The notes beneath the pieces were generated by a model that was not told the origin of the DNA, did not search any database, and worked only from the letters and a program-made list of their open reading frames with translations. This document shows, one piece after another, positions 1 through 34,147 of a DNA stretch of 34,147 nucleotides. The stretch lies in contig CACZJZ010000019.1 of assembly GCA_902781655.1 (NCBI GenBank), positions 1 through 34,147 of the forward strand, read 5' to 3'. Position 1 is the stretch's first letter. Each line of letters opens with the position of its first letter. The translations under genes were made by a program, and so were the position numbers. The DNA is from an uncultured Lachnospiraceae bacterium (lineage in GTDB: Bacteria; Bacillota; Clostridia; Lachnospirales; Lachnospiraceae).

Positions 1-330
1 CCTTCGCACCAGGCTATTCAGAATGGACTCAAAATCTCCGAGAAGCTGCACCTCGTCCAACAGCACATAGTATTGATCCTGGTCGTTAATTCGTTCGTTT
101 AAATAAGGAAAGAATATTTCCGGATCCCGATACTTTTTATTCTCATAGACATCAAAAGCCATCTCTATAATATGATCGTCCGGAACCTGGTTCTTCCTGA
201 GATACTCTCTGAACAACTCAAAAAGCAGATACGTTTTTCCGCATCTTCGAACCCCGGTAATGACCTTAATCAACCCATTATGACGCTTGGAAATCAGCTT
301 GTTCAGATAGGTATCCCTGCGAATTTTCAT
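1..330 (-). CDS. AAA_14/DUF4143-type ATPase, N-terminal part (runs off the left edge)
   Basis: Only the first 110 residues are inside the window. A Walker A (TGVRRCGKT, residues 25-33) and a Walker B followed by DEVQ (YYVLLDEVQ, residues 87-95) are visible. The GxRRxGK(T/S) form and the LDEVQ ending are typical of the AAA_14 domain of the AAA_14-DUF4143 proteins, which are abundant in Clostridia and Bacteroidetes and lack a settled function. I chose the ATG at 330 because it aligns with the start of the paralogue at 33983 (YLNK-ISK--NG-IK-ITG-RR-GK) and has AGGG at a usable distance; ATGs at 336 and 339 are alternatives. The gene is preceded by a promoter framed by two palindromes. Whether the DUF4143 domain follows cannot be seen. 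Base use is AT-richer than the central genes. Confidence 0.85.
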   Translation of the reverse strand, partial: MKIRRDTYLNKLISKRHNGLIKVITGVRRCGKTYLLFELFREYLRKNQVPDDHIIEMAFDVYENKKYRDPEIFFPYLNERINDQDQYYVLLDEVQLLGDFESILNSLVRR

Positions 331-360: not shown

Positions 361-379
361 AAATGCGGAATCCGCATTT
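361..379 (-). promoter_or_regulatory. Downstream palindromic operator of the left ATPase promoter
   Basis: This is a perfect inverted repeat with a single central base: core TGCGGA-N-TCCGCA at 364-376, extended to 9-bp arms at 361-379. It lies about 10-22 nt after the predicted transcription start of the 1-330 gene, so a bound protein would block clearance or elongation. A second copy lies at 439-451. The binding protein is unknown; autoregulation by the ATPase is inference. Confidence 0.7.
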
Positions 380-391
380 TTGTCCATTTAT

Positions 392-420
392 ATTGTAACC
401 CACATCACACTGGTCGTCAG
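392..420 (-). promoter_or_regulatory. Promoter of the left ATPase gene
   Basis: On the minus strand, -35 CTGACG (420-415) is separated by 17 bp from -10 TACAAT (397-392). The predicted start is near 385, leaving a leader of about 55 nt. The promoter sits between the two palindromes with the same geometry as the promoter at 33902-33931. Confidence 0.55.
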
Positions 421-438
421 CGCTTCATGTGATATTTT

Positions 439-451
439 TGCGGATTCCGCA
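439..451 (-). promoter_or_regulatory. Upstream palindromic operator of the left ATPase promoter
   Basis: TGCGGATTCCGCA is a 13-bp palindrome with a one-base centre. Exactly 18 bp (421-438) separate it from the -35 element. Centre-to-centre distance to the downstream copy (centre 370) is 75 bp. The flank on one side (TTTTTGTCCAT on the plus strand) is also duplicated with the downstream copy. Confidence 0.7.
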
Positions 452-33474: not shown

Positions 33475-33503
33475 TCCGGGGAAAATCATAGGCAAAAACC
33501 TTC

Positions 33504-33547
33504 AAGGCACTCCTTCTCAGAATCCATCTGAGAGGGGGTGCCTTTTT
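33504..33547 (+). terminator. Intrinsic terminator after lysS
   Basis: The stem AAGGCACtCCtTCTCAGA/TCTGAGAGGgGGTGCCTT (33504-33544) with a short ATCCA loop is followed by TTTTT. It is strong and ends the greA-lysS unit. Confidence 0.85.
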
Positions 33548-33869
33548 GCGTGCAGACAGCAGGAAAAGAGGCTGAAAAGCCTTTCATCCCTGTTTGAATA
33601 GAAACCAGATTACGCAGATGCGTATGATCCTTGCATCTGCCCACAAATCCACAAGGAGGAAACGTATGGAACAGGAGTATCAGTGAAAGAACTTTCGTTT
33701 TTTCACACGACCTTCCTTTTTATACACGGGGTTGTTTGATGGCTCAGAGGAAGGGGGGAAGGTTAACCATGCTGGATCGCTTGCGATCACAATTTGTGAC
33801 CCCGGGTTTTGAAAGGAACTCGGGACACCTGAGTTTAATCAGTTCTTCTTTAGATATATATTAAAAAAA
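33548..33869. other. Intergenic region with no recognised gene
   Basis: A perfect 8-bp inverted repeat GCAGATGC/GCATCTGC (33614-33640) is followed by a textbook ribosome site AAGGAGG (33652-33658) and a six-residue reading frame (ATG 33666, MEQEYQ, stop 33684-33686). It may be a leader peptide or the cut-off start of a lost gene. A frame from 33631 to 33864 has no ATG at its start and no family resemblance, so I do not call it. Composition turns AT-rich toward the end. Confidence 0.45.
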
Positions 33870-33883
33870 TGCGGATATCCGCA
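33870..33883 (+). promoter_or_regulatory. Upstream palindromic operator of the right ATPase promoter
   Basis: TGCGGATATCCGCA is a perfect 14-bp palindrome (arms TGCGGA/TCCGCA, 2-nt TA centre). Exactly 18 bp (33884-33901) separate it from the -35, the same as at the left edge. Confidence 0.72.
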
Positions 33884-33901
33884 AAATTATCATGAATGAT
33901 C

Positions 33902-33931
33902 TTGATGGTGCAGCAGAATAAACGGTATAAT
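33902..33931 (+). promoter_or_regulatory. Promoter of the right ATPase gene
   Basis: TTGATG (33902-33907), 18 bp, TATAAT (33926-33931). Predicted start near 33938, leader about 45 nt. It is stronger than the left counterpart by consensus. Confidence 0.7.
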
Positions 33932-33945
33932 ATACGTGAAAAAGA

Positions 33946-33959
33946 TGCGGATATCCGCA
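33946..33959 (+). promoter_or_regulatory. Downstream palindromic operator of the right ATPase promoter
   Basis: Identical 14-bp palindrome TGCGGATATCCGCA at about +9 to +22, centre 76 bp from the upstream copy. It lies just before the ribosome site AGGA (33971-33974). Confidence 0.72.
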
Positions 33960-33982
33960 AAAATATAATGAGGAAACAGCGC

Positions 33983-34147
33983 ATGTATCCGAGAGAGCAG
34001 TATCTGAACAAGATCATATCGAAAAAGGACAATGGGCGGATTAAGATCATAACAGGGCTTCGCCGAAGCGGAAAATCTGTCCTGCTTTTTCAGCTATACC
34101 GTGATTGGCTTATAAGTGAAGGAATTCATGAGGATCATATCATAGCT
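33983..34147 (+). CDS. AAA_14/DUF4143-type ATPase, N-terminal part (runs off the right edge)
   Basis: 55 residues are visible. The start MYPREQYLNKIISKK leads to NGRIKIITGLRRSGKSVLLFQLYRDW, with Walker A TGLRRSGKS. It is a clear paralogue of the product encoded at 1-330: YLNK-IISK, NG-IK-ITG-RR-GK, LLF-L-R and DHII line up without gaps after the first residues. ATG 33983 has AGGA 8 nt upstream. The rest of the protein, including any DUF4143 domain, is outside the window. Confidence 0.85.
   Translation, partial: MYPREQYLNKIISKKDNGRIKIITGLRRSGKSVLLFQLYRDWLISEGIHEDHIIA

Follow-up and report, generated by a model that had tools for sequence, protein, structure and literature searches.

Lac and GalR are looping repressors that use two operators around a promoter, at distances beside which the 63-84 bp spacing described here is short. 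The genes analysed here resemble those systems in that a matched operator pair flanks one promoter in helical phase, and differ from them in that the ATPase would itself act as regulator and that the operator core varies by gene. PMC7319586 describes AbiE, in which the antitoxin represses its own promoter via inverted repeats, with Rv2827c using two sets. The arrangement predicted here shares with AbiEi and Rv2827c a defence-linked protein that represses its own promoter, but the repressor in AbiE is the antitoxin, whereas the ATPase clade has no recurrent partner gene. In the BrxR/WYL and RptR systems, according to PMC9122601 and PMC12255303, a repressor binds repeats in defence promoters, as may happen here; those repressors are encoded by separate regulator genes, and none recurs beside the ATPases of the relatives.

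The single-gene candidate defence system PDC-S01, an ATPase fused to a PD-(D/E)XK member, is thought to help fight viruses. Passages of PMC12988326 rank it fourth by frequency among the defences of all prokaryotes and note that most such candidates still await validation, and passages of PMC13356809 place it first in frequency among the individual loci of rumen genomes; the passages of both papers hold neither a mention of a PDC-S01 promoter or operators nor a functional test. A search of the open literature by title and the start of the abstract gave, among the matches listed, none on these operators, and DUF4143 appeared in one paper of the literature searched, in a single table row. We describe here a gene-specific operator-pair layout on the promoters of a PDC-S01 clade.

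Matched operators flank the promoters of two ATPase genes

The window, that is, the whole stretch of 34,147 nucleotides analysed, is the entire contig C19, one of the 53 contigs that make up a genome of 2.76 Mb. At each end of the contig lies an outward-reading AAA_14 ATPase gene that is cut there, as if paralogous copies of the same clade at positions 1 and 34147 had broken the assembly. The two protein fragments are 57% identical across 51 residues. Both match the PDC-S01 profile best (PADLOC; 5.3e-29 for the left fragment and 5.1e-15 for the right), and three full-length relatives match PDLC04787 at E 4e-106 to 4e-115 (best 4.2e-115). The promoter elements of the right gene are as follows.

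33854..33895, + strand: extended op1 repeat of 42 bp, aligned to 33930-33971, with A-tracts and outer arms
33870..33883, + strand: op1, the upstream operator, TGCGGATATCCGCA, an exact palindrome of 14 bp
33902..33907, + strand: -35 hexamer TTGATG, 18 bp after op1
33926..33931, + strand: -10 hexamer TATAAT of a sigma-70-type promoter, with an 18-bp spacer from the -35
33946..33959, + strand: op2, the downstream operator, TGCGGATATCCGCA, 14 bp after the -10, between the predicted start site and the ribosome site
33970..33974, + strand: probable ribosome-binding site GAGGA, by direct reading of the sequence
33983..34147, + strand: right-edge AAA_14 ATPase gene, first 55 codons; best PADLOC model PDLC04787 (PDC-S01)

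On the opposite strand, the left gene has the same arrangement.

439..451, - strand: op1, TGCGGAATCCGCA on the minus strand, a 13-bp palindrome with one central base
415..420, - strand: -35 hexamer CTGACG, 18 bp after op1
392..397, - strand: -10 hexamer TACAAT, with a 17-bp spacer
364..376, - strand: op2, TGCGGATTCCGCA on the minus strand, a 13-bp palindrome with one central base
1..330, - strand: left-edge AAA_14 ATPase gene, first 110 codons; best PADLOC model PDLC04787 (PDC-S01)

The preliminary description had reported identical 14-bp palindromes flanking the right-gene promoter, a downstream operator between start and ribosome site and an 18-bp gap between upstream operator and -35 common to both genes, all of which agree with our measurements; op2 lies 14-15 bp past the -10 in the two genes. 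Its further claim that the left gene has the same two-operator promoter holds for the layout but not for the palindrome, which is 13 bp there and 14 bp in the right gene, so that the half-sites are common to both genes and the whole site is not. If transcription starts 7 bp after the -10, the centre of the right-gene op1 lies ~62 bp before the start.

Promoter matches of this quality are common in themselves (2 found against 1.6 expected). The extended op1 repeat, by comparison, scored 30, reached by 0/60 shuffles, and TGCGGA-N(0-4)-TCCGCA occurs at four sites in the window against 0.01 expected from shuffles and at 13 sites genome-wide, where the reversed control pattern has none. Chance thus does not explain the operator pairs at the window promoters, in line with the preliminary description, which had called coincidence unlikely. 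Apart from op1 and op2, the window contains nothing that matches TGCGGATATCCGCA when up to two mismatches are allowed, a search in which two or more matches also arose in 3/100 shuffles, and no further exact copy was found anywhere in the 2.76-Mb genome. The nine TGCGGA sites outside the window were considered as a regulon and dropped; all are single, and they were set aside because each is covered by an open frame of at least 80 codons.

Operator pairs recur at promoters of one ATPase clade

Three clade members are present in the genome itself, and all three have an operator pair. The third, on C18, has a different one, TGTAGA-AT-TCTACA and TGTAGA-AG-TCTACA, 63 bp apart around the promoter, and the TGTAGA pattern had no other site in this genome. 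Genes of the C18 type in three genomes (L032, L034, L035) lie next to one and the same upstream gene, presumably that of ribosomal protein S9; the G049 copy has in common with them the gene and its near upstream DNA only.

Since the preliminary description had expected TGCGGA pairs to mark this ATPase family, we searched 397 genomes of the bacterial family for a complete TGCGGA palindrome with a half-site 56-80 bp further on. Matches were found in 25 genomes, in 13 of which both sites are complete, giving 16 pairs that include the window's own two and some genes of the first set below. All 16 pairs lie directly upstream of an ATPase gene, as expected; 15 were called by a scripted Walker motif and L219 by eye, from the first 26 codons, as its contig stops within the gene. 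In the 12 genomes with one operator and a stray half-site, no Walker motif was found within 420 bases after it (0/12). Three genomes (G000, G303, G330) each have one gene with a 13-bp and one with a 14-bp TGCGGA operator, the latter with one extra central base, a difference that may or may not keep the two genes of a genome apart.

Inspection of 30 relatives revealed an own pair at most promoters. For the genes of a first set, we scored the best-matching segments within 180 bp upstream of the start and compared the scores with those of 60 dinucleotide shuffles. This set was made up of these 30 loci and 60 more rows taken by score, with the lowest-scoring rows left out; fragments that were short, rows truncated where a contig begins and one row with a stop were skipped, and L053 and L089 were dropped as having no detectable start or Walker motif. 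Among the clade genes, both window genes included, 44/58 passed, and 14/58 promoters had no pair by this test. A pass does not by itself prove an operator pair: at least one of the 44, L052, is a hairpin 46 bp apart, and L080 passes with a pairing at 139 bp. More distant DUF4143 proteins passed in 6/32 cases, so the control module that had been proposed for the whole family stands for one AAA_14/DUF4143 clade and not much beyond it.

A second set of 80 named loci from another collection, with titles mostly from Lachnospiraceae, Oscillospiraceae, Erysipelotrichaceae and other Clostridia and a few from Bacteroidota, left 75 testable promoters (L159 and L200 had no gene found; L127, L173 and L199 had too little upstream DNA). 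With 40 shuffles for promoters and 20 for controls, 54/75 promoters passed and 21/75 had no pair; without L122, L139 and L187, which repeat L081, L069 and L054 of the first set, the count is 51/72. A score of at least 15 was reached by 52/75 promoters, compared with 0/75 segments inside genes, 1/72 after genes and 2/71 further upstream, and the controls beat all their shuffles in 5/75, 6/72 and 6/71 cases, respectively. Copies in plasmid and phage records, eight taken from 236 matching records, passed in 3/8 cases, and three others of the eight have weak pairs at 74-76 bp. A circular 2,630-bp record of Prevotella nigrescens (L241) has two annotated genes, an ATPase relative with a pair 76 bp apart and a gene with a TaqI-like specificity domain.

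More distant copies in the same genome, on C21 and C10, had no such pair; the C21 protein is 32% identical to a clade protein, although its best PADLOC model is the same one. On C10, the minus-strand AAA_14-DUF4143 frame L021 (348 codons) starts inside another long frame and its usual start is missing, as if truncated. Two distant paralogs lie on C25: L023 has inverted arms CGACTAATCTAAA and TTTAGATTAGTCG around the promoter region upstream of 1447, passing the repeat test with a related but different layout, and the start of L024, on the minus strand, is preceded by direct repeats of AAATAGATTCATCTCCATTTTTT. In the distant relatives L098, L103, L104 and L114, we noted a single long palindrome of similar style, AATAGTTTT ... 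AAAACTATT, rather than a pair.

The ATPase gene might also be a mobile element in its own right, with the sites as its ends or targets. Some close relatives are indeed similar from op1, or from at most ~75 bp upstream of it, to near the stop codon, with differing flanks (similarity begins at the op1 edge for L073 or L081 against the left gene and ~75 bp further up for L032 against L033), and plasmids and phage records contain copies as well. A third copy of the core (at most 3 mismatches in 16), however, was found after the gene in only 2 of 42 paired genes, in scans that covered just 73-79 bp for 18 of the 42; these are L049 (1186 bp) and the hairpin sequence L052 (61 and 333 bp). A core copy lies inside the gene in 3 of the 42. 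The upstream gene that L032, L034 and L035 have in common is also what vertical descent would give, and we regard a mobile element as extremely unlikely.

The layout is conserved and the operator sequence is not

Most relatives have a palindrome or quasi-palindrome different from that of the window genes, and the conserved feature is the layout and the match of sites within a gene, not the operator sequence, a wider finding than the control module first proposed, whose presence and spacing recur while its sequence changes from gene to gene. Re-centred sites mostly take the form AAAAATG-N9/10-CAAAAAT, often with matching outer arms; this motif is partly built in, because re-centring rewarded TG...CA and A/T-rich flanks, and an unweighted half-site model gave the same form in many genes. 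In 71 genes with distinct proteins and a re-centring score of at least 25, all chosen for having a pair, core identity averaged 0.83 within a gene, as against 0.35 between genes whose proteins are <60% identical and 0.34 for shuffled cores. The cores fall into 34 types. Addresses are not always private: two genes of G062 (L040 and L073) have a nearly equal 13-bp operator, which makes the insulation between genes imperfect.

Operators on either side of a promoter are as a rule those of a dedicated regulator, and the pairs could be bound by a host transcription factor distinct from the ATPase, or by several related ones. BrxR, for example, is a WYL-type regulator that controls defence islands (PMC9122601). 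With 34 core types, however, about as many regulators would be needed, each following its ATPase gene, and the largest cluster of neighbouring genes comprises 5/107 loci in flanks of at most 1.5-2.5 kb. Two of the three cores in the window's genome were also found only at their ATPase, the exception being the left gene's 13-bp core, with one further single copy on C11, and no further pair of the three cores was found in that genome. Control by a separate factor is very unlikely on these grounds.

Spacing between site centres in 96 pairs clusters at 63 bp (n=6), 73-77 bp (n=61) and 83-85 bp (n=21), with two pairs at 70 bp and six at other values that include mis-centred pairs (29, 107, 113, 139). 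The classes at 63, ~75 and 84 bp differ by about one helical turn, such that two matched sites lie around one promoter in helical phase. Taking as the promoter the best match between the sites, which makes single distance values uncertain, op2 follows the -10 by 12-16 bp in 51/57 genes of the 75 class, 12-13 bp in 19/21 of the 84 class and 14-15 bp in 4/5 of the 63 class, and the gap from op1 to the -35 is 17-19 bp in 48/57, 28-30 bp in 19/21 and 5-6 bp in 4/5, respectively. With op2 distances fixed and the op1 gap stepping through ~6, 18 and 29 bp, op1 shifts by about whole turns as op2 stays in place. Related genes share spacing classes, so the independent shifts are few; the 63-bp class is found in two groups that differ in their cores (L032-L035; L155 and L175).

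These distances bear on whether the two sites act together. Autoregulation could operate without a loop, with op2 alone as a roadblock and op1 serving separately, for example as an activator site or a reservoir. The fixed position of op2 relative to the -10 fits such an arrangement, as do the single palindromes of L098, L103, L104 and L114, but spacing steps of whole turns would be needless for independent sites, although an activator at op1 that touches RNA polymerase could also require phasing. We consider independent action of the two sites unlikely.

Palindromic repeats around a short promoter segment could alternatively be recombination sites at which the promoter flips. As repeats, 12/96 pairs score best in inverted orientation, and perfect palindromes are ambiguous in this respect; the other 84/96 score best as direct repeats, where inversion calls for inverted ones. 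Inversion does not require helical-turn spacing either, and the neighbouring genes include no recurrent candidate for a recombinase, making a promoter switch barely credible. Hardly more plausible is control at the RNA level, with op2 acting in the leader or both sites forming terminator hairpins. Each palindrome precedes a T-run when read on the minus strand and has a terminator-like score there, but cores such as TGTAGAATTCTACA would make weak stems without a loop, matched pairs that are not palindromic also occur, and op1, being upstream of the predicted start, would lie outside the transcript. Rfam gave no match in 33500-34147; terminator-like scores, Rfam and a 3' operator copy were all checked and dropped.

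The ATPase as a candidate reader of its own operators

AAA_14 matches the left fragment at 64.1 bits against a cut-off of 27 and the 55-residue right fragment at 26.4, just under it. In all 18 relatives examined, an AAA_14 match (E 0.01) is accompanied by a C-terminal DUF4143 region, before which both window genes end. Within DUF4143, at about residues 223-262, lies a helix-turn-helix-like stretch that may be the DNA reader. Pfam helix-turn-helix models matched it weakly in 3/9 clade members, under the cut-off (best HTH_64, E 0.025), and gave no match in 6/9; the C25 paralog of the same genome matched HTH_36 at E 6e-5, better than the clade but also under the cut-off. Searches of solved structures yielded no relative at E 0.01 and, with a limit of 10, weak matches only, at E 0.38 and above; NCBIfam had no match for three relatives.

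The C-terminal end contains a nuclease-like motif. Q-S-A is invariant in 48/48 aligned relatives, and the 10 clade members shown read E-(I/V)-D-F ... Q-(S/V)-(A/T), with the catalytic lysine missing at its motif position, unlike the PD-(D/E)XK-type region with which PDC-S01 is described. The D...(E/Q)xK motif of an active PD-(D/E)XK nuclease is absent from the relatives, in which it was sought since the window genes are cut; the lysine may be displaced elsewhere in the clade proteins. Two C25 paralogs in the same genome keep E-I-K. Loss of the lysine in the clade and its retention in these paralogs would make a binding role at least as likely as cutting.

If the protein reads its own operators, regions that contact DNA might covary with them. 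Seven protein regions were compared across 328 close pairs, and the partial correlation with operator similarity was highest for the helix-turn-helix stretch (0.37, as against -0.44 for the AAA domain). The residue range 235-243 was chosen after all ranges had been viewed. In disjoint pairs (~27 per draw) the values were 0.27 for this stretch, at a median permutation p of 0.10, and 0.24 for the C-terminal region, each being the best region in about as many draws (24/60 and 23/60); given that p, we keep this covariation as weak support only. Covariation of cores with protein columns over the whole set gave scattered best columns, and proteins with different recognition helices have the TGCGGA operator in common. 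The pair comparisons speak against the AAA domain as the site reader and do not separate the helix-turn-helix stretch from the C-terminal region.

We infer that the operators are bound by the ATPase, that the bound protein acts as a repressor and not as an activator, since op2 lies over the transcription start, and that a loop forms. An autorepressing promoter, in which the ATPase binds its own two operators and bridges the promoter through a loop, is probably the right explanation. The protein (AAA_14, then DUF4143 with the helix-turn-helix-like stretch and the degenerate nuclease-like end) would act as a dimer or higher oligomer on an operator that suits this particular protein and is present twice, upstream of the -35 and over the transcription start. 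Protein at op2 would block RNA polymerase, and protein at op1, on the same helix face, would stabilise the op2 complex through a small loop, so that the gene would repress itself.

A further reading goes beyond autorepression and is quite unlikely in our estimation. One protein would be both repressor and effector, with a DNA address that has evolved for it and is found chiefly at the promoter of its gene. The complex on that promoter would be the sensor: if an attack stripped off the bound protein, cut it or outcompeted it, both gene and effector would be freed. Were this true, the fast turnover of addresses would be driven by avoidance of cross-talk between sister copies or by phage decoys.

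Implications

PDC-S01 is among the commonest candidate defence genes in the passages of the surveys cited, hence the interest of a signature at its promoters. Autoregulation and the spacing rules are simple predictions from the layout. The signature may name the binding site of each protein, so that a protein and its own 34-bp operator would be a direct handle, and the collection would offer dozens of natural protein-site pairs for decoding DNA specificity.
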